The notes under the pieces: model-generated
Told to the model about the DNA's origin: nothing
The model's database searches: none
Seen by the model: the letters and a program-made list of their open reading frames with translations, nothing else
Made by a program: the position numbers and the translations under genes
Origin: Tubulanus polymorphus
Taxonomy: Eukaryota; Nemertea; Palaeonemertea; Tubulaniformes; Tubulanidae
Direction of reading: 5' to 3'
NCBI RefSeq assembly: GCF_964204645.1
Contig: NC_134031.1
Location: 15,125,307-15,189,306 of the forward strand
DNA length: 64,000 nt
Shown here: one piece after another, positions 17,263 to 62,759 of the stretch
Layout: each line of letters begins with the position of its first letter
Numbering within the stretch: the first letter of the stretch is position 1

Positions 17263-17320
17263 GTAACACTTGATGTGATTTCTCTTTATGAATCCGTATA
17301 ATATTGTTGTACATTATCAG

Positions 17321-17633
17321 GTTAACACACGCTCAGATAAAACTATGACATCTACGGAGCATCCGACAGCATCCAGTGACCAGCAGCAGCAGCAGCGGGA
17401 GCGAGAGGATGAGGTCGATCGAGTGATGACTTACGTATTTCTCGACCTGGAAGCGACCGGACTCGCCGGAATCGGAGAACGTCCGAAGATCACCGAACTG
17501 ACGTTCGTCGCCGTTCATCGAGACGAACTCGTCAACGCGTATAAATTCAAAGTGTTTCCACGGATACTCAACAAACTGACCGTATGCGTCGATCCGAAAA
17601 AAATGATCACTCCTAAAGCTATGGAACTGACTG
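17321..17633 (+). CDS. TREX: TREX-family 3'-5' exonuclease, exon with Exo I motif
   Basis: TREX proteins are DEDDh exonucleases that degrade DNA 3' ends. The acceptor ACATTATCAG ends at 17320 and the donor ACTG|GTAGGT begins at 17634. The first in-frame ATG after the acceptor is 17345 (MTSTEH...); ATG at 17426 (MTYVFLDL) is an alternative start closer to the usual TREX start. The frame is also open upstream to the acceptor, so a leader exon could add residues. FLDLEATGL is the Exo I motif; counted from 17345 its catalytic Asp34 and Glu36 are intact. It is followed by a P-K-I-T-E-L-T strand as in vertebrate TREX. A Gln-rich run lies at residues 13-17. The exon ends in phase 1 with ELT-G, and the join to 29837 restores a typical TREX sequence (TGLYNDSL). 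Confidence 0.85.
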
Positions 17634-17639
17634 GTAGGT

Positions 17640-18125
17640 TTAACTCTTAAACTACTTATATCAATATCAGTTACACAGTTCTGATTCCAGTTCCACGGGT
17701 CTGTATCCAGTTCCATAGGTCTGTATCCAGTTCCATAGGTCTGTATCCAGTTCTACAGGTCTGGATCCAGTTCCACAGTTCTGGATTTAATGGAACTGAC
17801 TGGTAGGTTTAACCCCTAAACTACTTATATCAATATCAGTTACACAGTTCTGATTCCAGTTCCACAGGTCTGTATCCAGTTCCACAGGTCTGTATCCAGT
17901 TCCACAGTTCTGGATCCAATTCCACAGGTCTGTATCCAGTTCCACAGTTCTGGATTCAATGCCACAGTTCTGAACTGAGTTCCACAGTTCTGAATCCAGT
18001 TCCACAGTTCTGAACTCATTTCCACAGTTCTGAACTCATTTCCACAGTTCTGAAATCAGTTCCACAGTTCTGGACCCAGTTCCACAGTTCTGGATCCAAT
18101 TCCACAGTCCTAAAACCGGGTTCTA
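17640..18125. repeat. intronic minisatellite, TCCAGTTCCACAGTTCTGGA-type
   Basis: About twenty copies of a 20-bp unit (CCAGTTCCACAGGTCTGTAT / CCACAGTTCTGGATCCAGTT). It includes a second copy of the preceding exon end plus its splice donor, with a GTAGGT at 17803. The same unit occurs at 50690-50830 and, inverted, at 57195-57720. Confidence 0.85.
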
Positions 18126-18885
18126 TTGAACTGTCCAGGAACTATCCTGGTTGAAAACTACATGTCCAACAGCAGGTGTTCACTAATTTCATAAACAATA
18201 AATATCAATACGCATTAAATCAAGTGACATTTGAACAATTGTGGTGCTTACAACTTCAGCAGTCAACAAGCTGTTTCAAATCATCAACTGCATTTAAACT
18301 GTCTCCAGGCGTGTGCGTACACGTGTGCGCCCACTGGCACACAGAAATCCGTATAAAATACGTTCATTACTATAAATATTATTTATTCATTTCCACTGTG
18401 CCCTGTTGATCGGAAAGTTCAAGTAGAAAATATTGGATAATATTCAGTTTCCGGTTGCTTTTGACCGACTGAAACCTGCCGAGGACGACGACGATCAAAA
18501 CCACCTGAGCGAGACTGGAAATTGTTAAACCGAAGAAAAACTTCAAAAATAAATCAGTCGAGCGAAATGTCGTTATTCTTAACGCGCACATTCGTAGGGT
18601 GTAAATATTTTTTGAATTTCATTCTCGTACGAAATCTTGGATTGTAACTTCTAAATCGAGGTTGTATTATTAGTCACGACTAAAGGACTTCGAGAAATAA
18701 GCGACTAAGAGGACTCGGAGGTCACACTAGGAGGTCACATACGTAGAAATAAATCTCTTATCTTACTGAATGCATTCTCGAACTTCACCGGGTTTTTATT
18801 GCCTCGTAAAAACACATTATTGCGAACCATTAAAACTATACTGAACTGTATAAACGGCTATACGGGGAGATGTGTGGATTCGACC
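18126..18885. other. intron sequence without recognisable features
   Basis: Part of the large TREX intron. No exon, repeat array or element end could be supported. Confidence 0.5.
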
Positions 18886-19160
18886 AGCTCGGGATCGCTG
18901 GATTTAGCCTGCCCGGAGTCCCTGGATTCACCTTGCTCGGAATCGCTGGATTCACCTTGCTCGGAATCGCTGGATTCAACTTGCTCGTAATCGCTGGATT
19001 CAGCCGGCTCGTAAACGCTAGATTCAGCCTACCCGGAGTCTTTGGATGCAGCCTGCCCTGAATCTTTGGATTTAGCCTGCCTGATATCGCTATATTCAGC
19101 CAGCTCAGAGTCCCTGGATTTGACCTGCCCGAAGTCACTGGATTCAGCCTGCACAATGTC
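18886..19160. repeat. 24-bp minisatellite in TREX intron
   Basis: About eleven copies of a 24-bp unit containing CTCGGAATCGCTGGATTC. Because 24 is divisible by three, frames stay open on both strands; this is not evidence of coding. Confidence 0.8.
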
Positions 19161-19299
19161 GCCTGGTATAAACAAATAGCCCCACCTAGGGTTAGCACGT
19201 GGTCATTAACCCTGGCTTCTGATTAGCCTGAGCTAGTCACCTGAAATAAACAAGCTAGGTCAATGGCCCAATTGGTTACTATGGGCACTGAGTTTGAAA

Positions 19300-19545
19300 A
19301 ATAACCTCGCCTCATTAACCCCTCACTTGGAAAATCCCTTTACCTCACCAGCCCCTCACCCCCACCCCACCTCATCAACCCCTCATACCAGCTCTTCACC
19401 TCAACCCCTCACTTTACCAGCCCCCTCACTTGGAAACACCCTTTACCTCGCCAGCCCCTTACCTCATCAACCCCTCACTTCACCAGCCCCTCACCTCATC
19501 AACGTCCCCTCACTTCACCACTCCTTCACTTGGAAACTCCTTTTA
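19300..19545. repeat. minisatellite, CCTCACTTCACCAGCCC-type
   Basis: Irregular units of CCAGCCCCTCACCTCATCAA and TCACTTGGAAA, about 60 bp per higher-order unit. Confidence 0.65.
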
Positions 19546-19929
19546 CCATCCTCTAATAATCTTCGCTAAAGTAATAATACATAACATCAATATATCATAG
19601 TGTAATATCTGAAATCAATGCCCTAATTAACCAACAGGATACTGTCTGATATCTGAAACATAATCTCTCCCCTCCCCCCTCTCTCTCCCTCTAGCTGTTA
19701 GTGAGTGCCCTTACTGCACTCTGAGAAACCTGCTCTCCGTACAGTACCGTGTATACCCCGTACATAACAGCGCATGATCATAAAATATAAGTTATGGTTT
19801 TATTTGTCAGTGTAAATATTCCACATGATTTTTAATGTCGTTGACGTCCTATAAAATCATGTGCAGCGTGAAACAATAAAATGATATTAATACATATAAA
19901 TAGAATATATACCACTCCTATAATATAGA

Positions 19930-21318
19930 TTAACACCAGCATGAAGTTATACCCCCTATAGCTCATGGCAATACTCCCTACTTCCTGAGTTTACCCGCTA
20001 GCTCCTGATTATACCCCCTACAGCTCGTGGTTATACTCCCTAATTCCTGAGTTTACCCCCTAGCTCCTGAGTATACCCCCTATAGCTCGTGGTTATACCC
20101 CCTAGTTCCTGAGTTTACCCCCTAGCTCCTGAGTATACCCCCTATAGCTCGTGGTTATACCCCCTAGTTCCTGAGTTTACCCCCTACAGCTCGTGGTTAT
20201 ACTCCCAACTTCCTGAGTTTTCCCCCTACAGCTCATGGTTATACCCCCTACAGCTCGTGGTTATTCCCCCTAGTTCCTGAGTTTACCCCCTAGCTCCTGA
20301 GTATACCCCCTATAGCTCGTGGTTATACCCCCTAGTTCCTGAGTTTACCCCCTAGCTCCTGAGTATACCCCCTATAGCTCGTGGTTATACCCCCTAGTTC
20401 CTGAGTTTACCCCCTACAGCTCGTGGTTATACTCCCAACTTCCTGAGTTTTCCCCCTACAGCTCATGGTTATACCCCCTACAGCTCGTGGTTATACCCCC
20501 TAGTTCCTGAGTTTACCCCCTAGCTCCTGAGTATACCCCCTATAGCTTGTGGTTATACCCCCTAGTTCCTGAGTTTACCCCCTAGCTCCTGAGTATACCC
20601 CCTATAGCTCGTGGTTATACCCCCTAGTTCCTGAGTTTACCCCCTAGCTCCTGAGTATACCCCCTATAGCTCGTGGTTATACCCCCTAGTTCCTGAGTTT
20701 ACCCCCTACAGCTCGTGGTTATACTCCCAACTTCCTGAGTTTTCCCCCTACAGCTCCTGATTATACCCCCTACAGCTCGTGGTTATACTCCCTAGTTCCT
20801 GAGTTTACCCCCTAGCTCCTGAGTATACCCCCTATAGCTCGTGGTTATACCCCCTAGTTCCTGAGTTTACCCCCTAGCTCCTGAGTATACCCCCTATAGC
20901 TCGTGGTTATACCCCCTAGTTCCTGAGTTTACCCCCTAGCTCCTGATTATACCCCCTACAGCTCGTGGTTATACCCCCTAGTTCCTGAGTTTACCCCCTA
21001 TAGCTCGTGGTTATACTCCCTAGTTCCTGAGTTTACCCCCTAGCTCCTGAGTATACCCCCTACAGCTCGTGGTTATACCCCCTAGTTCCTGAGTTTACCC
21101 CCTAGCTCCTGATTATACCCCCTACAGCTCGTGGTTATATTCCCTAGTTCCTGAGTTTACCCCCTAGCTCCTGAGTATACCCCCTACAGCTCGTGGTTAT
21201 ACCCCCTAGTTCCTGAGTTCACCCCTAGCTCCTGAGTATACCCCCTACAGCTCGTGGTTATACCCCCTAGTTCCTGAGTTTACCCCCTAGCTCCTGATTA
21301 TACCCCCTACAGCTCAGT
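19930..21318. repeat. 1.4-kb higher-order minisatellite in TREX intron
   Basis: A basic unit of about 20-22 bp comes in three types: GCTCGTGGTTATACCCCCTA, GTTCCTGAGTTTACCCCCTA and GCTCCTGAGTATACCCCCTA. These alternate in fixed order as a unit of about 62 bp, repeated roughly twenty times with local deletions. Large blocks are near-identical, which indicates recent unequal exchange or slippage. Confidence 0.9.
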
Positions 21319-21784
21319 TATATCACTTGAACCTACTTTTGACCAACACTGACCTCTGGCTGGACCTTATTTAAACCCAGTGGCTAGTTGAGGCTTAGAT
21401 TTACGACCATAAGTCTAGGCCGTAATTTAGTTTAACCCTTTCATATCTGCACTCGTGACTAATCAATAAATCTATCAATGAATTCCTTATTATATCACTA
21501 CTCTCACGGGTCATGTGATTAAATGTGTCAATGATTTAGAGAGGGGCGGAACCGTTACCGGGCAACGCAACAATTAATTAATCGTTGTTAGATACGCGAT
21601 AATTACATATATCCATACGTGTACTATTAGGAACAGTAGGCGGGGGGCAAGTGAGGGCAGTTTTATTGCCGATACGCGACGATACGCCACAATACGAAAT
21701 CAGAAATGGTTTTTTTTATATCGATATGTCATGATATTTAGAAAATTGAATGAATTGATGAAATGATTGATTCGAAGTTGGATT
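21319..21784. other. intron sequence, no recognisable feature
   Basis: Unique sequence within the TREX intron; nothing supported. Confidence 0.4.
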
Positions 21785-21905
21785 AATAAGTGTGTCAGTA
21801 TTGGTGCTGGTGCTAGTGCTCGTACTGGTGCTGGTGCTAGTTCTCGTACTGGTGCTAGTGCTCGTACTGGTGCTGGTGCTGGTGCTGGTGCTGGTCTGGT
21901 GCTGC
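21785..21905. repeat. GGTGCTGGTGCT microsatellite-like repeat
   Basis: Tandem GGTGCT / AGTGCTCGTACT hexamer-based repeat. On the - strand it reads Ala-Pro repeats in a spurious frame. Confidence 0.7.
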
Positions 21906-22329
21906 TGACATATTTTGTTCCCCTTTTTCGTAAAAACTGAGTAATTGTTTTGATTCTGGTTTGTTGAGAATGCACGCGGTCTGCTCGGAGGTTGTTATAA
22001 CAAACTGCACCCGATATCAAACACGTTTTATATAAAATATTGCAATCGAGAAAATCTGTAACATTCTTACAACAATACATCGGATACAATAAGGGTATTC
22101 TCTACACAGTATGAACGCCGGCCTGTTCTGTGTGAATCTATAAGTTTTACACGTTGATAATGATTGCATCGGTCGTCGTCGTACATTAGGCTTTAGAGAT
22201 AAAAGTTAAATTGTTCTATTATTTGAACATGTTTCGGTCCATTAGAATCTGTGAACGACTGTGAAAAAAAAGATAGAAAAATAATGAAAACATAAGTGTT
22301 GAATTGAATTCATATGATGAGAGAAACAA

Positions 22330-23225
22330 AGACAACACATCTCGCCTTCTTTCCCTCACTCATCCCCTCTAATCAGTACTCCCCTCTTCCTCCCCTCCAT
22401 TCAGTACTCCCCTCCCCACCACCATTCAGCACACTACTATCTCCCTCCCCTTCTTTCAGGATACCCATCTCCCCTTTCCCCTCCATTCAGTACTCCCCTC
22501 TCCTCTCTCCCTTCCATTCATTACTCCCCTTCCCCACCACCATTCAGCACACTCCTATCTCCCTCCCCTTCTTTCAGGATACCCATCTCCCCTTTCCCCT
22601 CCATTTAGTACTCCCCTCCCCACCCACTATTCATCACACTCCTCTCTCCCTCCCCTTCTTTCAGGATACCCATCTCCCCTTTCCCCTCCATTCAGTACTC
22701 CCCTCCCCACCCACTATTCATCACACTCCTCTCTCCCTCCCCTTCTTTCAGGATACCCATCTCCCCTTTCCCCTCCATTCAGCACTCCCCTCTCCTCTCT
22801 CCCTTCCATTCATTACTCCCCTTCCCCACCACCATTCAGCACACTCCTATCTCCCTCCCCTTCTTTCAGGATACCCATCTCCCCTTTCCCCCATATTCAG
22901 TACTCCCCTCTCCTCTCTCCCTTTCATTCAGTACTCCCCCTCCCCACCACCATTCAGCACACTCCTATCTCCCTCCCCTTCTTTCAGGATACCCATCTCC
23001 CCTTTCCCCTCCATTCAGCACTCCCCTCTCCCGATCCTTCATTTAGCACTCCTCTCCCCCTCCCCTCCATTCAGCACTCCCCTCTCCCGATCCTTCATTA
23101 AGCACACTCCTCCCCCTCCTCTCCATTCAGCCCTCCCCTCTCCCCATACTTCATTCAGTACTCCCTCTCCTCCCTCCCCTCCATTCAGTACTCCCCTCTC
23201 CCCACCCTTCATCCAGTACTCCTTA
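22330..23225. repeat. C/T-rich higher-order minisatellite
   Basis: Units of roughly 110-170 bp built from CATTCAGTACTCCCCTCTCC, CACACTCCTATCTCCCTCCC and TTCTTTCAGGATACCCATCT. The 345-codon frame across it is Ser/Pro/Leu only and compositional. Confidence 0.8.
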
Positions 23226-25570
23226 TTACTTATTATCGATGATGACGGGTTTTGTAAGAGTTCAATATTGAACAGTTTTCAATCAATAACAATAACGTTG
23301 TGTGTGTGTGTGTCGTGTTGCCGAGAGCTCTATACGATGTGTACTAATTGATTATTGCTTCTGTATACTGTGACATGTCTCAAGGGGGTGAAAGGGTGAG
23401 TGAGACTGACAGGTAAGAGAGAGAGGTGAGAGGGAGTGGACGAGCAAAGAAACCATAGATTTTTATACAAAAGGACACTTTTCCTAGAGGACATTTTGTT
23501 TTGATATTGGAAGTCACCCCTGATGGATCCAACCCTGACTGACTTTCTCTTCTCTCCCTCTCTCTCTCTCTTCTCTCTCCTTTCTATTCTGCTACACTTC
23601 ATTCATTTTTATGCCCCCCTGACAGAACTTAAGTTGAGAGGGCGCATATAGATTTTCCCCCATCAGAATAGGCTGCTGCCACAAGTGACGTTAACAGCCC
23701 GAGGGCCAATGATTTTCAAACTTGGTACAGAAGTAGGGCACCACTCAGGGCAGAACTCTTTCTAAAGTTGGGTCGATGCGATTCAAATTATGACCACTAG
23801 AAGGTGACATGAAAAAAAGATGTAAACACTCTAGAGGCTGCAGTTCTCAATTATTTTTTCAAACTCTGTAAAAAATTGGGTCGATTCAAATAATAATGGC
23901 CACCAGGAGGCGACATGAGAAAAAGATCTAGAGAGTCTAGAGGCTAGTTGGCAAACAAATTTTTTCAAACTCACTAATAAATTGGGTCGATTCAAAATAA
24001 GACGACCAGGGGAAACTGTTGACCAATTTTCTAAACTTCGTACACGCGTATAGGGCATCACTTAATGCAGAACCCTAGTGAAAATGGGGTTAATTTGATT
24101 CATATTTCCGTCTCCAAGGGGAACACATGCAAAAAGTGGTTTAACAGCCGAGCGGCAGCAATATTGTCCTCCGATTTTTGTTTCAAACTCGCAGGGCCGC
24201 CAACAGCTCCTTTCTGGCCACAGAAACGCCCGCTAAAATGCAGCGTTTCTGTGGGGCGTACAACGGAATACGGCCTGCTTCTTTTTTTTAAAATCTCAGT
24301 TAGTACGGGGAAACACCAATTGAATACGCTCAGTCGCATTATAGTCCGTTCCCATCATCGTACGGTAATCTGACATAAATACGCATGCTCAACCTTTGTC
24401 CAATATCATTCTTATAGAAATGATTGCGGACTCGATATTTCCAATGCATTCATTGCAATCCCTGTAACTTCACGTGTCAGGCAGGGAATTTCAGGCCAGG
24501 GGGCGGGGCATTCATTCGAGGCTTTTCCTCGTTCTAGTTGTTTAACATTTAAAACTGGAAACAAAATTTTTACGAATTCATGTTTCGTCGAACTGTATTC
24601 TCTGAGTTAGAGTATTTCACGTCAATTGTTGTTTCGACAAGAATGAATACAGATAGTTAGATGTTACATCCGACGATAGCCGCGTGGATCCATCAACCAG
24701 TCCACCGCACCCGGCGTCGTGTTCGTTCCCGGAAGGAGTCCGCCGCTCCGTTGCGCCCCTGTTTTATTTATTTTCGCTTCCGTTTTACGATGAAGCCATC
24801 GCGTGTCTGTTATACGCAGAATTTACACCCCGTTCTAAAATACTGCGCGTTTCGTAAATCTTCGGTTTTTTCTTTTTTTCGTGGTACAGGTGAAGAGAGG
24901 GGGAGTGAGAGGGAGAGAGTGGGGGGACTGCTGCCGCGTGTGTGCACTCTCTCACTTTTACTAATAAACATTCACCCGTTGTAACAATGAGAAACCGCGG
25001 TGTTTAACGGAATTTTAAAAATACGTGTCTGACTAGGCGAATTATCGGGGTTTCGACATTATTATTAAAAGTATTTAGAATAAACTGCGATATATAGCGC
25101 CGCGTCGTGCGACGCTATTGGATAAAATATTGAACCGCGAGTTATTTTTACCAAACCTCTCTCTCTCCATTTCTTTCTCGTCGAACAGTGGGGGTCTGAA
25201 TTCCCGCGTAACAAATATCGCAATATAATTTCAATACGAGCGCCACATGTGACAAAATCAATGAAAAATTGCGCTTAGCATGACGTACACATCATCAATA
25301 CGACTTAATCGGTCTTTTACAAAAAATCAATTTATATCCGTACAATTTGCTTTTGTGTCGCGCTCGCATTCTTATAGTCGCCTGTATTATGTTACTATCG
25401 CATATTTGTCACTAAGGCCAGTGTAAAATGTGTGTTTATTAGCTGTTCATGGTGAGGGGCGCGTCCCGTCTATCCGGAGAGTGTTGTGAATACCATTCTA
25501 TTGAGTTATCTAAGTGACAGGTGAACTCGGTTCTATTTACACTGACAGTCAGCGGGGAGTTTGTTTTAAC
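23226..25570. other. intron sequence with a degenerate dispersed repeat
   Basis: About 23640-24350 has three to four diverged copies of a block with AAATTGGGTCGATTCAAAT, GACATGAAAAAAAGAT and TTTCAAACTC. 24205-24260 holds an imperfect hairpin (GGCCACAGAAACGCC / AGCGTTTCTGTGGGG). The remainder, to 25570, is unique with CpG-rich patches; no exon supported. Confidence 0.45.
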
Positions 25571-25573
25571 AAG

Positions 25574-27730
25574 TGCCCCTTGAGTGCATCTGAGGTGTTA
25601 CTTTGGTATCAGAATGCATCTGAGGTAATACTACGGTATCAGAGTGTATTTGAGGTGTAACTGTAGCATCAGAATGTACCTGAGGTGTAACTGTGGTATC
25701 AGAGTGTATTTGAGGTGTAACTGTGGTATCAGAGTGTATTTGAGGTGTAACTGTAGCATCAGAGTGTATTTGAGGTGTAACTGTGGTATCAGAGTGTATT
25801 TGAGGTGTAACTGTGGCATCAGAGTGTATTTGAGGTGTTACTGTGGCATCAGAGTGTATTTGAGGTGTAACTGTGGTATCAGAGTGTATTTGAGGTGTAA
25901 CTGTGGTATCAGAGTGTATTTGAGGTGTAACTGTGGTATCAGAGTGTATTTGGGGTGTTACTGTGGCATCAGAGTGTATTTGAGGTGTAACTGTGGTATC
26001 AGAGTGTATTTGAGGTGTAACTGTGGTATCAGAGTGTATTTGAGGTGTAACTGTGGCATCAGAGTGTATTTGAGGTGTTACTGTAGCATCAGAGTGTATT
26101 TGAGGTGTAACTGTGGTATCAGATTGTATTTGAGGTGTAACTGTGGTATCAGAGTGTATTTGAGGTGTTACTGTAGCATCAGAGTGTATTTGAGGTGTAA
26201 CTGTGGTATCAGAGTGTATTTGAGGTGTAACTGCGGTATCAGAGTGTATCTGAGGTGTAACTGCGGTATCAGAGTGTATCTGAGGTGTAACTGCGGTATC
26301 AGAGTGTATTTGAGGTGTAACTGTGGTATCAGAGTGCATTTGAGGTGTAACTGTGGTATCAGAGTGTATTTGAGGTGTAACTGTGGTATCAGATTGTATT
26401 TGAGGTGTAACTGTGGTATCAGAGTGCATTTGAGGTGTAACTGTGGTGTCAGAGTGCATTTGAGGTGTAACTGTGGTATCAGAGTGTATTTGAGGTGTAA
26501 CTGTGGTATCAGATTGTATTTGAGGTGTAACTGTGGTATCAGAATGCATTTGAGGTGTAACTGTGGTATCAAAGTGTATTTGAGGTGTAACTGTGGTATC
26601 AGAGTGCATTTGAGGTGTAACTGTGGTATCAGAATGCATTTGAGGTGTAACTGTGGTATCAGAGTGTATTTGAGGTGTAACTGTGGTATCAGAATGCATT
26701 TGAGGTGTAACTGTGGTATCAGAGTGTATTTGAGGTGTAACTGTGGTATTAGAATGCATTTGAGGTGTAACTGTGGTATCAGAGTGCATTTGAGGTGTAA
26801 CTGTGGTATCAGAGTGTATTTGAGGTGTAACTATGGTATCAGATTGTATTTGAGGTGTAACTGTGGTATCAGAGTGCATTTGAGGTGTAACTGTGGTATT
26901 AGAATGCATTTGAGGTGTAACTGTGGTATCAGATTGTATTTGAGGTGTAACTGTGGTATCAGAATGCATTTGAGGTGTAACTGTGGTATCAGAGTGTATT
27001 TGAGGTGTAACTGTGGTATCAGATTGTATTTGAGGTGTAACTGTGGTATTAGAATGCATTTGAGGTGTAACTGGTATCAGAGTGCATCTGAGGTAATACT
27101 ACGGTATCAGAATGCATCTGAGGTGTAACTGTGGTATCAGATTGTATTTGAGGTGTAACTGTGGTATCAGAGTCTATCTAAAGGTGTAACTACGGTATCA
27201 GAATGCATCTGAGGTGTAACTGTGGTATTAGGATGCATCTGAGGTGTAACTGCGGTATCAGAGTGCATCTGAGGTAATACTACGGTATCAGATTGTATTT
27301 GATGTGTTACTGTAGCATCAGAATGTATCTGAGGTTTTACTGTAGCATCAGAGTGCATCTGAGGTGTAACTGTGGTATTAAGATGCATCTGAGGTGTAAC
27401 TGCAGTATCAGAGTGCATCTGAGGTAATACTACGGTATCAGATTGTATTTGAGGTGTTACTGTAGCATCAGAATGTATCTGAGGTGTTACTGTAGCATCA
27501 GAGTGCATCTGAGGTGTAACTGTGGTATTAGGATGCATCTGAGGTGTAACTGCGGTATCAGAGTGCATCTGAGGAAATACTACGTTATCTGAGTGTATCT
27601 GAGGTGTAACTGTGGTATCAGAGTGCATCTGAGGTGTAACTGTGGTATCAGAATGTATCTGAAGTGTTACTATAGTATCAGAATGTATCTGAAGTGTTAC
27701 TGTAGTATCAGAGTGCATTTGAGGTACACC
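25574..27730. repeat. 2.2-kb, 30-bp-unit minisatellite in TREX intron
   Basis: About 72 copies of a 30-bp unit (TGAGGTGTAACTGTGGTATC then AGAGTGTATT). The period divides by three, so frames of about 495 codons are open on both strands (VYLRCNCGIR on +, QIHSDTTVTP on -). Unit variants differ at a few positions and change residues rather than only third bases. The array lies inside the inferred TREX intron, with no splice signals of its own. Confidence 0.9.
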
Positions 27731-28500
27731 TGCAGGGTAGGAGAGACACCTGCAAGTGAGGAGAGACACCTGCAGGGAAGAGACACTATTCGACACTGTG
27801 TTTCTGATCGCTTATCACGAAATTCATCGCCACATTTTTTTCGCATGAAAATGAAACTAACATTTAGTTGATCAGTTAGTCAGTAGATGGCAGCAGTGGT
27901 AGGGTATTAGATACAGCGAGCGAGAGAGAGCGGAGAGAGTTTTATGAGCGGGTCACATGGTGCACTTGACTGATTATCCAACAGTATTTTTATCGGTTAT
28001 GATATCTGAGAACACTTCTCTCTGTCTCTGCCTGCCCTACCCTTATAACGGTTTATACAGCCATCAACATATCTAACATTTAAGCATGTTATTGACCCCT
28101 GTTATATAAAAAAATATATTTACATGACCCAGAATTAAGACTCTGGTCTCACAGTTGTCCAGTTAGAAATTGACAATTGACAAAAAACTGACAGTTCTTT
28201 CAACCATTTTAAGGCTATTGAAATTGTGGAAATAATGTGGAATTGTGGAACTTTAGAACTGGATCAGATATATCGCAATGACGATGTTGTAATCGTTCCA
28301 AAAATATGTTAATAACTCCTAGATATGCAAATGAGCGGTTTTTAATATGCAAATGACCTCGGTGCAAGTCGTAATAAAACGGTAATCGCTTGAATATTGT
28401 GTTTTATGAATGTCACGCTTCGTTCTGGGAAAAGTGATAAATTTTTATTTTATCAAAGATCAAGGAAAAGTGAAGCAGATAATTTCGGAGAAGTGTGATC
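27731..28500. other. intron sequence, no gene
   Basis: A few copies of AGAGACACCTGCAGGG follow the minisatellite to about 27780. The rest is unique, with no exon signals. Confidence 0.45.
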
Positions 28501-28504
28501 GAAA

Positions 28505-28690
28505 CGGGTCATAATAGACTCGAGAGTGTTTCTTTCCCTTCTTTCCCCTCCCTCCCCATGTGATCTCCCTCCTCCCCTCGTGACCTCGCTCCCCTCCTCA
28601 CATGCTCCCCGTCCTTCCCATGTGACCTCCCTTCCCATGTGACCCCCTCCTTCCCACGTGACCTCCCTCTTCTCCGTGTGACCCCTCTAA
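28505..28690. repeat. C/T-rich minisatellite, CATGTGACCTCCCT-type
   Basis: Short irregular units with CCCATGTGACCTCCCTTC and related words. Frames on the - strand are compositional. Confidence 0.6.
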
Positions 28691-28879
28691 CATTAACGCA
28701 GCTCATTCTCGGTACATAGCAATTCAGACCTCGATAAAATAAGATGCATTTATAAAAAAAAGTGCGCAACTTTATTGCGATGATGTAATCGGCAGAGAGA
28801 GAGTCGTAGATCATAGTAATAGCAGTTTACAACGGGTGCATTAACCCTTCACTCTCTCTCTCTCTACTTCACTCGTGCT

Positions 28880-29080
28880 GGTACTCCTCGCATGAACCCT
28901 CATTCCACTCATTCCACTCGTACTGGTACTGCTCGCATAAACCCTCATTCCACTTGCTCCACTCGCACTGGTACTCCTCGCGTGAACCTTCATTCCACTC
29001 ACTCATTCACTCGCACTTTTTCTCGTACTCCTCGCAATAAACCCTCATTCCACTCATTCACTCGTGCTGGTACTCAGGAG
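28880..29080. repeat. minisatellite, CCCTCATTCCACTCGTACTGG-type
   Basis: Four copies of a 45-60 bp unit containing ACCCTCATTCCACTC and CTGGTACTCCTCGC. Confidence 0.7.
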
Positions 29081-29349
29081 AGGGGTAGAAGCATGGTTAT
29101 TGCACTGAACTGCGCTATATCATAGATCACACCTCCAACCACCCAGCCACCCGCCCGTCCTCCCGTCAGCCTGGCTCAATGTCTGGTTGATTTAAGAGCA
29201 GTTGCAGCCATATTTATGAGTGAGTCTCACTCGGCTCGGGAGTGCGCTGCCTGCAGGTCTATGAGGTCATCGGTGTAAATTCAAGCTACATTTATGGCTA
29301 ATCGTAGAGTACATCATACACAGTGTGCTGCATTAGATTAATAGACTGG

Positions 29350-29760
29350 CACTTATCTGAACCCGACAATTATCTGAACCTAACGATTGTCTGAACTTGA
29401 CAATTGTCTGAATCCCATTGTCTGAACCCCAGAATTGTCTAAATCCTACAATTGTCTGAACACCACAATTGTCTGAACACCACAATTGTCTAAATCCTAC
29501 AATTGCCTGGACCCGGAATTGTCTAAATCCTACAATTGCCTGGACCCAGAATTGTCTGAACCCCAGAATTTTCTAAACCCCAGAATTGTCTAAATCCCAC
29601 AATTGTCTGAACCCACAATTGTCTGAATCATACAATTGTCTGAACCCACAATTGTCTGAACACCACAATTTTCTAAATCCTACAATTGCCTGAATCCAAT
29701 AATTGTCTAAACCCACAATTGCCTGAACCCCACAATTGTCTGAATTTCACAAATGTGTGA
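29350..29760. repeat. minisatellite just upstream of TREX exon 29837
   Basis: About twenty copies of a 16-20 bp unit, ACAATTGTCTGAACCC / CTACAATTGCCTGGACCC, ending some 80 bp before the acceptor. Confidence 0.85.
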
Positions 29761-29836
29761 ACGCACAATTTTTCCTCAAATGATTTTTCATAGAGTTTTT
29801 CCTCAAATAATTTTTCGTATATATTTCTAATTTCAG

Positions 29837-31284
29837 GATTATACAATGATTCATTAGGAACTCAATCCGCGTTCGATAAAGACATGACCGATATGGTGTC
29901 ATTGTTTCTACGGAGACTGCAGCAGCCGGTTTGTTTGTTGGCGCACAACGGCGACAATTTCGAATTCCCGTTGCTGAAAACGGAATCGATGAAACACGGC
30001 GGTTTGAATCTGCCAAATCTGATGTGCGCGGACACTCTGAAACTGATGCGCAGCGTCGACAGCGCGATGGACCGCGCGCCGCACGACATCACCAATAACA
30101 ACACAAACGTCGAACGATTCAAATCGGATCTTTTAGCGATCGACGATAAATCTCTGAATGGCGCCATTCTCTGTCAACGTAACAAAAAACTGAACAATCG
30201 AAGCAGTTTGACGTCGCATGTCGTCATCGTGAATTCGAAAAGTCCGAAGAGCAACTCGACGCCGAGCGACGTGGACAGCCCCGACAGAGAGAAACACCTG
30301 ATTAAAGAGCTGTTCCCGCGGTCGACGACGGGGACCGGCGCGAAAACTCCGCCTGACTCGTCGGACGCTGGCGGCGTTAAAATTGGCGCCACCAAAACCA
30401 GCAGCGTTAAACCGTTGAAACGAAAATCGGTGATAATACAGGAATGTCTCGGAGAAATCACCGACTCGGTCGTCACGAAACGTCGGCTGTTCGATAAGAA
30501 ACTACGAAATCAAAACAAACCGGCCGGCGACCGCGAGTCGAGCGAGTCGCCGCCGGTCGACAGCGATAAATCGGTCGACGAGTCGTCGTCGGTCGACGAG
30601 TCGTCTCCGCGACAACGAGTCGACAATTCCAACAACGACGGCGGAACGACGACGACGACGAAGAAACAGTCGTCGTCGTCGCCGGTGAATAATTTACACT
30701 CGCACACGACGATACTCTACTGGCAGGATTACTTCAACGAGGAATTCTTCCGCGAGGCGCTCGAGGAGGACTTCACGACCGCAGCCGACGAGTGCGCGCG
30801 GTCCGGTAGCGCGTCGCCGGTCTCATCTCACACCGACGACCTGACCGTCGTCGAGCGCGGCTCGTCGACGTCGCCCGACGGCGCCGCCGCTGTCAAAGAC
30901 GATTCGGCGAACTGCGGACGCAGAGAAAACAATACGGCTACGGCGACGACAATGACCTGTGATCACCATAACAACGGTAAACAACGACAACATTCCAATC
31001 GGTGCAAGAATTTAAAACGCGATCATTTGAGTGGAAAACTGCTGAGCAGTCGTTTCAACAATATACCGGTGCTAGTCGTACCGCGTCCCGGTAACGTTTC
31101 GTACAGTTTAACGGAGATCTATAAACGTATGTTCGGACGGTATCCGTTGGCCGCGCACCGCGCCGAGGACGGGTGCATCGCGTTGTTGCAGATCGTACAG
31201 CAGTTGGCACCGCACGCGTGTCACTGGATCGATTCGAACGCCGCCAACTTCAACTCCATTAAACCTCTTTATAAACCCCGCTAA
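29837..31284 (+). CDS. TREX: TREX-family exonuclease, terminal exon, altered catalytic site
   Basis: The acceptor TAATTTCAG ends at 29836. The phase-1 join gives TGLYNDSLGTQSAFDKDM, close to mammalian TREX. Exo II reads LLAHNGDNFEFPLL; the family's catalytic Asp (mouse/human TREX1 Asp130) is Glu (29962-29964). A TREX-like segment MCADTLKLMRS follows, then a low-complexity insertion of about 340 residues (roughly residues 170-510), rich in Ser, Asp, Thr and Asn. The fold then resumes with SYSLTEIYKRMFGRYP and Exo III HRAEDGCIALL; the His is kept, but the position of Asp200 is Gly (31171-31173), with an Asp one residue earlier. It ends FNSIKPLYKPR, matching the end of the TREX catalytic core, with no membrane anchor. 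The predicted protein is 578 residues, against about 236-314 in human TREX2/TREX1. The C-terminal stop is 31282-31284. Activity may be lost or changed. Confidence 0.85.
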
Positions 31285-48338: not shown

Positions 48339-48605
48339 TCAAACATTACCAATGCAATCAAACAAAAAAAGTCAGTTATTACTTATTGACATTATTTAGA
48401 GGGGCGCTATTGCATTTTCGTACCCCCTCCCAAAATTTTTTATTTCTGTATATTATTAATCAGGGAGGTCTGTAGAGTCAAAATGAATTACTTTTGACAA
48501 AAAAAAAATCGTTGATCTTTTGTTAAGCAGCCAGTAGAGTAGTTGTAATGTTGATTTGTAACTGTCAGTGATCTCTGTAACCCCAGCAGGTGACGACAGA
48601 CCACG
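48339..48605. promoter_or_regulatory. upstream region of the ODAD1-like gene
   Basis: The presumed promoter and 5' untranslated region lie between the foldback element and the start codon at 48606. I see no TATA box and no clear X-box. Confidence 0.3.
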
Positions 48606-51600: not shown

Positions 51601-54600
51601 CTCTAATCATTCACCCACACCGCTCGCTCAAATATCCAGTATGAAATCAATCAAGTGTTACTCGGGAAAAAATTCTATATTTGTTATATCCGATGAATCT
51701 TTGTATCCGAGTTCGTTATAACGAGGTTCCGTTAAAATTTTGTCACCACACACGGGCCTGAGGCAAGCTGGGAGCGTACCGTTCGATATTGGGTGAACGC
51801 CTCGTGATCCCGTCGAGATAAAAAAGATTTCGTTTTTTTTTCGCGTAAATTTTCAGCTCGCGAAGCCGAGAAAAAGAAAGAAAGCGCCGAAGATTCGGTT
51901 GAAACTTACGAGACGGCGATCGAGAAAATGATCGATATCACGGGCGAAGAAGATTTAGATCAGTTAGTGACGAAATTCATCGAAACCGAAGATCAGAATT
52001 TCGCTCTGTTTAACTACGTGAACGAATTGAACAACGAAACTGAAATGTTACAAGAGCAAATACAAGAGGTGAGATTTTGTCGGCCGTGGAATTCTGGAAA
52101 ACAGAAATGTTGGCCGAAAATGCTGGACAGACATTCCAAGAATTCTGCAGGTGGCGGGGGTACTCATCAAGCAGACAACAGAAAATTCTGGGAAATAGAA
52201 ATGCTGGCGGAAAATTCTGGACAGAAATTCCAAGAATTCTGCAGGGGGCGGGGGTACCCATCAAGCAGACAACAGAAAATTCTGGAAAACAGTAATGTTG
52301 GCAGAAAATTCTGGTAGGAGTTTCTGGAAATATTTCTAGAATTCTGTTAAGTGTGACAATTCTGTACATATTTTGGTCAGTTACCTAATCGTTGGTGGTA
52401 AGCTTTTTTGGATGGGTTTATACCAATTGTGAAAATATCCGATCGTGAACTTAAACCAGACTGGCTACACGTACCGGTTTCTTTGCAGCCTGGTCTCGCT
52501 GTGCTGTGTATCAAAATTAATATGACTTTGAATAATTTGTGATATTTGTAGATTCAAGAGGAGATCAGTAAATTCAAACAGCAAGGAGCCGATATGGAGG
52601 AGGAACGTAAACGAATATTGAAAAAACTATCGGAAAAACAAGAGAAATCTTCGAAAGAAGCCGATGAGCACGACAGCCGGTTTACCGCTATTAGTAAAAT
52701 ATTAGATCAACTCAGAGCAGGTACCTAAACAACCCCTCACTCCCTCCTACCCTCACTCCCTCCTTGCCCTCACCCTCTCCTACCCCCACCCTCTTCTACC
52801 CCTCACTTCTAACCCTCACCCCTTTCTACCTCCTACCCCTCCCTATTACCCTCCACCCTCTCCTACCTCGCACTCCCTCCTATCCACCCTCTTCTACCCC
52901 TCAGTTCTAACCCTCACCCTCTCATAACCCCTCTCTAACTCCTACCCCTCACTCCCTATAACCCCTCACCCTCTCATAACCCCTCTCTAACTCCTACCCC
53001 TCACTCCCTATAACCCCTGACCCTCTCATAACCCCTCTCTTACTCCTACCCCTCACTCCCTATAACCCCTCACCCTCTCATAACCCCTCTCTAACTCCTA
53101 CCCCTCACTCCCTATAACCCCTCACCCTCTCATAACCCCTCTCTTACTCCTACCCCTCACTCCCTATAACCCTCACCTCTCATAACCCCTCTCTTACTCC
53201 TACCCCTCACTCCCTATAACCCCTCTCTTACTCCTACCCCTCACTCCCTATAACTCCTCACCCTCTCATAACCCCTCTCTTACTCCTACCCCTCACTCCC
53301 TATAACCCCTCTCTTACTCCTACCCCTCACTCCCTATAACTCCTCACCCTCTCATAACCCCTCTCTTACTCCTACCCCTCACTCCCTATAACCCCTCACC
53401 CTCTCATAACCCCTCTCTTACTCCTACCCCTCACTCCCTATAACCCCTCACTCTCTCCTACCCTACACCTTCACTCTACCCTTCACTTCTACCCCTCACT
53501 TCTCACCCTCTCATAACCAATCACCCTCTCATCACCAATCATCCCCACCTACCCTACACCCTCACTCTACCGCTCACCCTCTCCTACCCCTCACTCCTCC
53601 AAACTCAATCAGATTTCCAAATCATCCATTCAAGTTTCACCCACAGATAAATGACATTATTGTTGTTGTTATCATTTTAGGAGTTGAATCATTGTTTAAT
53701 AAGATCAGTTGTAACCGCGCTGCTATTGACGAGATGCTCGGCGCTCATCAGGGGGTCACCGATCAAACTCTCATGGAATATCTCGGAATCATTGAACAGA
53801 GAACGAATGAATTATTAGCGATACAAGCCTACATCAATTATAAGGTACGCATTGAATCTTGCCGCGACTCCGCAGAGAGACAGATATAGAGTATAAATAT
53901 GAACTGATGTTGGATTTATGTTTGATAAATGTAGGATTATGAGAAGTACGATCCTAAAGCGCCTGCGCTGTTAGGAGAAGGTCCGCAACCTCCGGCGCAA
54001 CCTCAGCTAATCTTCCCTCCGTCTGTTGGGTAAGTTGTCATCAAGTTCTTGACTCAACGCGACCGTACAAAACTGTCTACTGAAAATTTCTAAACATTGT
54101 GAATTTGATGTTAAGAGTCAAATTGCTTGGTTCAGTATCAAATTTACCTCAAAATCGTGGAACTGGGACCACGTAAAACTGATTAAAGCTGACTGGAATT
54201 TGATAAATCTGTAAGGCTAAAATAAGATGTTACCATGTTTCTCCTGATTGGTAGGTTCATTTTGTAGATTGCAATAAAATTTGTCCATTCCTATATAACT
54301 GCTGGGTCTGTTATTGTTAGCTTGGTCATGATATTGAAAAACAAGTAATGTACAGGGTAGATACGCGACCAGTCGGGTCAACTTATAAGTTCAGGGGCCA
54401 GTTGCGCAGTTGTGACCTCAGTCGAAAAGTGGTCTTAAATCTTGAAACAGGTCTTAAGTTGTTAAATTGGCTATAGAACTAAGTTGGTCTTAGACTGGTC
54501 TTAATACCGAACCATGACTTTGCAACCGGCCCCAGCAGAAATGAGAAACAACGTATCTATTGGCCCTAAGGTGGTACACAAAACTTCGCTCTCAATTAAC

Positions 54601-62100: not shown

Positions 62101-62508
62101 CTAATTAAATCAATACACCGCACACCGCATTGCGGTGTACTAGCAAAATCCATCACTGATTCATACACCGCACTGCGGTGTAGACGCACTGAAAGGGTTA
62201 AGCGTATCACACTAGACGGCGCTTACTTACACATTTTCTTTATCTTTCATATTTTTCTCGTACTCTCCGATGACTGTCTGATGTTTTTTCAACTCCTCTT
62301 TAAGTCTTGTCTCCCTTTCTTCGCAGCCCTCGTAGAATTTCAGTCGTTCTTCCATTTTTTTCAGTTTGTCCTCCAACGCTTTGATCTCGTTGTGTATGAG
62401 GTAACTGACTCCGCAGAATTTACAAACAGTTTCATCGCGTTTCATCTTACGAATGTTCTCCGGTAGAGGGTGAACCGGGGTCGTTATTTCCAAACGATCG
62501 TTTTCCAT
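56183..62508 (-). CDS. LEKR1: LEKR1-like coiled-coil protein
   Basis: Thirteen exons with consistent phase, in transcript order: 62508-62231, 61670-61551, 61334-61159, 61062-60886, 60570-60411, 60233-60100, 59299-59136, 58268-58182, 58082-58005, 57896-57737, 57145-57012, 56926-56818, 56412-56183. They give 668 residues, near the length of vertebrate LEKR1. The N-terminus P-L-P-E-N-I-R-K-M...VCKFCGVSYLI (Cys29, Cys32) matches what I recall of LEKR1. The rest is almost continuous Lys/Glu/Leu coiled coil, ending in a Ser/Pro-rich tail (LPLPPKPPPA...RKK). The ATG at 62508 follows an acceptor TTATTGCAG about 18 bases upstream. A non-coding leader exon probably ends at 62658 (donor GTAAGT). Function is poorly known; the ciliary neighbour makes a ciliary or centrosomal role possible. 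One donor (GTCAAT after 61551) is non-ideal. Confidence 0.75.
57195..57720. repeat. minisatellite, GGATCCAGAACTGTGGAACT-type, LEKR1-like intron 10
   Basis: About 24 copies of a 20-22 bp unit, the inverse complement of the array at 17640. The open frames on the - strand (FHSSGSSSTV repeats) extend from exon 10 into this array but are intronic. Confidence 0.85.
58295..58465. mobile_element. Tigger/pogo-like MITE with TA flanks, LEKR1-like intron 7
   Basis: CAGTAGAATCAGCTTAATTC at the left and the inverse of GGATAGTGGGTTAGACTG at the right, bordered by TA (58293-58294, 58466-58467). The interior is shared with 9613-9775. Confidence 0.7.
58557..58600 (-). ncRNA. mutated hammerhead-like motif in LEKR1-like intron 7
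   Basis: On the - strand: CTGATGA (58598-58592), a perfect 7-bp stem (TAGTAGC complement pairing 58590-58584 with 58578-58572), then AAAA (58571-58568) where the core requires GAAA, then GCTTGTGTGTC. It resembles the Penelope tail at 7836 but has one core base changed, so activity is doubtful. Confidence 0.5.
58601..59135. other. remainder of LEKR1-like intron 7
   Basis: Unique intronic sequence beyond the hammerhead-like remnant; no exon fits the phase-0 junction between the flanking exons. Confidence 0.45.
59377..59664 (+). mobile_element. TTAA-flanked MITE, copy 2 (LEKR1-like intron 6)
   Basis: TTAA at 59373-59376 and 59665-59668. It is 288 bp, in the same orientation as copy 1 and similar throughout. 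The ends are CCCTTTCAATGC and GCACTGAAAGGG. Confidence 0.85.
59669..60099. other. rest of LEKR1-like intron 6
   Basis: A tandem-like pair of segments shares ATTACTC and CAAAAATCAAACA-type words (about 59750-60010); no other feature. An open frame at 59718-59906 is not supported as an exon. Confidence 0.35.
61373..61505. mobile_element. MITE with GGGGCTGCAGTTTCTC ends, LEKR1-like intron 2
   Basis: The left arm GGGGCTGCAGTTTCTCAAAA...GTTGGTTAAAGTTAACC is mirrored by GGTTATTTTTAACC...TTGAGCAACTGGTCCC. It is 133 bp with arms of about 40 bp. The ends relate it to the GGGGCCAGTTGC family. Confidence 0.7.
61903..62197 (-). mobile_element. TTAA-flanked MITE, copy 3, inverted (LEKR1-like intron 1)
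   Basis: TTAA at 61899-61902 and 62198-62201. It is 295 bp, inverted relative to copies 1 and 2. The internal ACCGCACACCGCATTGCGGTG palindromes are slightly expanded. Confidence 0.85.
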
Positions 62509-62759
62509 CGTTGCCAACACAGCTGCTGCAATAAAGTTTGAATTTATTTGACCAGGAAGTGAGTTGAATAAGCGATCTTTTTTAAAGATTTAATGAAGTT
62601 AAATTTAAAACAGATTGAACTTGATAAACATCAAATTTAACTAATTGAGGAACTTACGGTGACGGTGTTCAACAGCGCTTAGAATCCATTAAAATCATCA
62701 AATAATTAAATACTTTACAATATTTACAGCGTCATTCGCAACGGTTAGCACTAAATTGC

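Follow-up and report, generated by a model that had tools for sequence, protein, structure and literature searches.

The question raised by this locus is what remains of a TREX exonuclease when catalytic acidic residues have been replaced. Within the window, the whole 64-kb stretch of DNA analysed, the initial annotation had marked positions 29962..31173 as encoding a TREX-family protein with two altered catalytic positions. The interval runs from the first base of a Glu codon (GAA) to the last base of a Gly codon (GGG), and both codons share a plus-strand stop-to-stop frame (29794-31281, 496 codons). FLDLEATG, which holds the Exo I pair, falls outside the interval, in an upstream exon about 12.2 kb away.

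The gene consists of two exons on the + strand (17345-17633 and 29837-31284), which together encode a spliced product of 578 residues. Exon 1 (17345..17633) opens at the first in-frame ATG downstream of an in-frame stop at 17276, and a later Met, MTYVFLDLEATG, is also a possible start. It carries the D-L-E codons of the Exo I motif (17444..17452, +; TREX1 D18 and E20), kept in both sequence and alignment, and ends at the donor GTAGGT. The intron (17634..29836, +), 12.2 kb long and rich in tandem repeats, closes with the acceptor TTTCAG; the junction is in phase and uses GT..AG sites. Exon 2 (29837..31284, +) carries Exo II, a long insert, Exo III and the stop codon. No further TREX-like exon or alternative splice partner was found in the 64-kb window or in the animal's own genome. 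Around the boundary of exon 1, a 169-base unit is tandemly duplicated at 17621-17961 (2.0 copies, 93% match, Tandem Repeats Finder). The duplicated unit spans the last codons and the splice donor of the exon, yielding a second ATGGAACTGACTGGTAGG at 17790 within the intron, a decoy donor.

The spliced protein matched 29 distinct TREX-type sequences in the PDB. When the core, defined as the spliced protein minus its 343-residue insert, was used as the query, these 29 were recovered at E values from 6.7e-41 to 8.8e-37 and the next match only at 4.5e-5, so that the resemblance, as judged by alignment, is greater than chance similarity. Twenty-eight are named TREX1 or TREX2 and one exodeoxyribonuclease III, with phmmer E values of 6.7e-41 for 9l8a, 1.9e-39 for a TREX1 chain and 9.5e-39 for a TREX2 chain. 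With exon 2 alone, TREX1 and TREX2 were hit twice, once around Exo II and once around Exo III. The Pfam family RNase_T (PF00929; cut-off 24) scored 33.6 bits on the spliced protein at residues 31-173, and the exon-2 protein alone hit no Pfam family (E up to 1). The family assignment made in the initial annotation is thus borne out by a match across the whole core.

With TREX1 and TREX2 the protein shares this core homology, the FLDLEATG, HNG and SYSL motifs, the Exo III His and an IKPLY end. It differs from them in having Glu for Asp130, Gly for Asp200 and the 343-residue insert (residues 175-517; 30070..31098, +). It has no C-terminal tail beyond KPLYKPR, which brings it nearer to TREX2 in length. 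The insert separates Exo II from Exo III, in the loop that precedes SYSL in the alignment; Ser, Asp, Thr and Asn are abundant in it, and its net charge is +3. This loop is flexible in TREX1. A disordered-looking insert in a loop beside the DNA may add partners or binding.

The catalytic positions were read from the codons and from the phmmer alignment, which pairs HNGDNFEFPLL with TREX1 HNGDRYDFPLL, and HRAEDGCIALL with HTAEGDVLALL. Read against the DEDDh set, the Exo I Asp and Glu are present (FLDLEATG, exon 1). Exo II (HNGDNFEFPLL) has Glu (GAA, 29962..29964, +) at the Asp130 position, a residue permitted in the DEEDh variant. The catalytic His (CAC, 31156..31158, +; TREX1 His195) is kept in Exo III (HRAEDGCIALL), and the position five residues past it, where Asp belongs, is occupied by Gly (GGG, 31171-31173), preceded by Asp (GAC) at the TREX1 199 position (31168..31173 for the pair, +). 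Both substitutions and the retention of the Exo I pair and His are as initially annotated, and GGG is indeed two changes from GAC or GAT. A-to-I RNA editing, considered as a rescue, cannot make an Asp codon from GGG. The D130 and D200 numbering is a count along the human TREX1 protein, and it agrees with a published residue list (PMC9314330). In that list, human TREX1 holds the 3′ end of DNA through D18, E20, A21, H124, D130, S176, Y177, L179, H195 and D200.

By alignment, eight of these ten 3′-end residues are kept, the two lost being D130 and D200. Across the core, the protein retains 53 of the 73 positions that are invariant in four PDB TREX chains (73%). The other 20 carry mostly conservative exchanges, V to I and Y to F among them, and at Exo III a run of three invariant positions is altered, from G-D-V to D-G-C. 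Three of the five DEDDh positions are kept (60%), which does not exceed the 73% found over the invariant positions as a whole, and the data therefore show neither protected catalysis nor a loss confined to catalysis.

The two substitutions are unlikely to be equivalent. Glu is the natural Exo II residue of coronavirus nsp14, an active DEEDh enzyme; across nidoviruses the equivalent residue is sometimes D and sometimes E, and nsp14 E191D has near wild-type activity (PMC7654266). By analogy, Glu at Exo II may be tolerated here, although this is uncertain in TREX because conservative changes in Klenow lower activity by over 96% (PMC7654266). At the other site, unlike the protein described here, nsp14 retains its Exo III Asp273 and is active on RNA, and the D273A change at this equivalent of Asp200 causes near-complete loss of activity (PMC7654266). 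In human TREX1, D200H, D200N and changes at H195 and D18 are disease alleles, at residues that metal binding and catalysis are described as requiring (PMC9314330). D200N, D200H, Asp200dup, E198K, V201D and H195Y all appear in a table of variants (PMC10672266). Changes at Asp200 cause human autoimmune disease (PMC9314330, PMC10672266). The weightier of the two changes is Gly at Exo III, which removes a metal ligand. The initial description of two altered catalytic positions stands as to the alterations themselves; any implication that both do equal damage is less well supported, Glu being natural in active nsp14.

To place the Exo III substitution in context, we compared the protein with 13 others: four PDB TREX chains, two near-identical bacterial relatives, six phage exonucleases (the aligned ones among 11 phage-collection records) and a gene from the same genome (L004, the one examined among five PF00929 matches) that we take to be ERI1-like. 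All 13 have Asp at Exo II and all 13 at Exo III, in a set whose members are not mutually independent, none being closely related to the source animal, and in which the Exo II reading for L004 comes from one of two alignments, the other having misplaced it. The window protein is the sole sequence lacking Asp at Exo II and likewise the sole one lacking it at Exo III. The residue preceding the catalytic Asp is Asp in five comparators, Gly in four, Tyr in three and Ala in one, and motifs such as HRALDD and HRAGDDC have Asp in both places. Because five of 13 pair an Asp there with the catalytic Asp, the one preceding Gly looks like the usual neighbour, and is probably an ordinary motif residue rather than a moved ligand. 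The same motifs suggest an ancestral HRAEDDC-like sequence whose second Asp was later replaced by Gly. A metal site shifted to the Asp one residue earlier, which the initial annotation had offered as one reading, is weakened by this comparison.

The bacterial relatives came from a search of prokaryote genomes with the TREX core alignment, which returned 24 stretches, of which these two were confirmed. The same alignment gave four pattern-matching stretches and no confirmed match among viral contigs, and the bacterial TREX-like domain gave seven stretches there, likewise with none confirmed. The two relatives, L001 and L002, come from Gemmatimonadetes metagenome genomes, both of which carry a TREX-like DEDDh domain within what appears by eye to be a UvrD-type helicase. 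In L001 (76-2658) the frame has 860 residues.

The reading we place first, with middling confidence, is close to what the initial annotation suggested: a TREX homologue that has lost most or all of its exonuclease activity and probably still binds DNA ends. The protein retains a TREX fold signature and most of the residues that hold the 3′ end. With Gly at the Asp200 position the last acidic metal ligand would be lost, whereas we treat the Exo II Glu as being of little consequence. Little or no 3′-5′ exonuclease activity is predicted because the two-metal site would be crippled without that Asp; any action left to the protein would then lie in binding DNA ends. Retention by selection, like the activity loss and the binding, is something we infer. 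A pseudo-exonuclease of this kind would have precedent, because PML-1 PXL and Drosophila Exuperantia exist, which share a DEDDh-type fold with an incomplete catalytic set (PMC12934764). The PXL domain binds nucleic acids without being a nuclease; it keeps one of the four DEDD residues and is ~10% identical to TREX1 (PMC12934764). The window protein, in contrast, is a true TREX homologue in which three of the five DEDDh residues survive and a fourth is Glu. In the open-licence literature we found no report of a TREX1/2 orthologue without this Asp and no paper on TREX1 D201ins; the available part of PMC12206365 holds no data on position 200.

The same substitutions could mark a gene in early decay, its function lost in the species or lineage while the frame is still unbroken. 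Two catalytic positions and three consecutive invariant Exo III positions are altered, as such decay would have it, and an open frame with its codon bias is compatible with a recent loss. The state of the gene argues the other way. Exon 2 has no stops in 481 codons; its two other frames contain 25 and 20, and 500 shuffles gave a mean of 19.7 and a minimum of 10. Third-position GC ranges from 0.57 to 0.72 by segment, against 0.32 to 0.50 for GC in the window. The two-exon frame is intact over 578 residues, its splice sites are kept, and the mildness of most swaps at invariant positions also counts against decay. The open frame implies that the coding sequence was maintained until recent times, and says nothing on current function. 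One genome cannot tell adaptation from early decay, and we consider decay possible at a rather low probability.

Copy number bears on both the end-binding protein that we favour and the alternative of an altered enzyme. The animal's own genome (268 Mb, 77 contigs) was searched exon by exon. Exon 2 matched only itself, as did exon 1 (E 9.7e-59), and no second TREX gene was found in this genome at a significant E with exon 1, exon 2 or two TREX chains as queries. A weak match at E 5.88 (C3, locus L012) was a repetitive stretch in the one frame viewed and was taken as chance. A PF00929 search of the genome returned five matches and passed over this TREX gene; a diverged paralogue might have escaped in the same way. 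Going by these searches, the gene is apparently single. The idea that its product blocks an active sister copy is unsupported, because no active TREX was seen beside this gene. The DEDDh nuclease of the KolobokD transposon is likewise an animal protein similar to TREX (PMC9587614); the gene described here differs from it in being single-copy and in having a 12-kb intron, and no transposase was noticed next to it.

As the only TREX gene seen in the genome, it could still encode a working exonuclease with a rearranged metal site, in which Glu at Exo II together with the 199 Asp, or a water molecule, makes good the lost Asp. That would accord with the retained Exo I pair and His, and Glu at Exo II has its natural precedent in nsp14. 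Against it, the 199 Asp coexists with the catalytic Asp in the five comparators described above and so was not displaced; the pathogenic human Asp200dup is itself a shift by one residue at this place (PMC10672266); and nsp14 with Ala at the corresponding position is almost inactive (PMC7654266). Among papers gathered for other questions, no DEDDh enzyme that works without this Asp came up. We regard a rearranged working site as unlikely. Less likely still is that one codon or both reflect a sequencing or assembly error or a rare allele: the reading does come from a single assembly and GGG accounts for only two of the 27 Gly codons in the gene, but two separate codons and at least three base changes would be involved in a frame that is unbroken, and the corresponding Asp is present in the ERI1-like gene of this assembly (HSGIDDAR).

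The Gly in what is apparently the only TREX gene would make the animal a natural test both for a TREX role independent of cutting and for how an animal handles stray DNA without TREX cutting. A bolder proposal, which we consider doubtful, is that the lineage's only TREX has become a stable pseudo-exonuclease that caps or senses DNA 3′ ends and carries a long regulatory insert, other nucleases clearing cytosolic DNA. If true, nature would here have fixed permanently what the D200 disease alleles do in humans.

The window as a whole is very rich in minisatellites: Tandem Repeats Finder gave 143 rows, counting those that overlap, among them a 30-base unit present in 71.5 copies at 25582-27725. 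An exon-like frame at 51808-52314 matches the Pfam family ODAD1_CC (E 6.2e-28), and plus-strand frames at 48594, 50909 and 53410 appear by eye to be further exons of this outer-dynein-arm docking gene. Together with the introns and the 268-Mb genome, the ODAD1_CC match points to an animal source. Just after the ODAD1-like exon, a 94-base repeat (2.4 copies, 52090-52314) begins within the open frame. On the minus strand, 62230-62589 is a coiled-coil exon with a CxxC start (KFCGVSYL), whose Pfam coiled-coil matches are weak and below the cut-off; it may be LEKR1-like.
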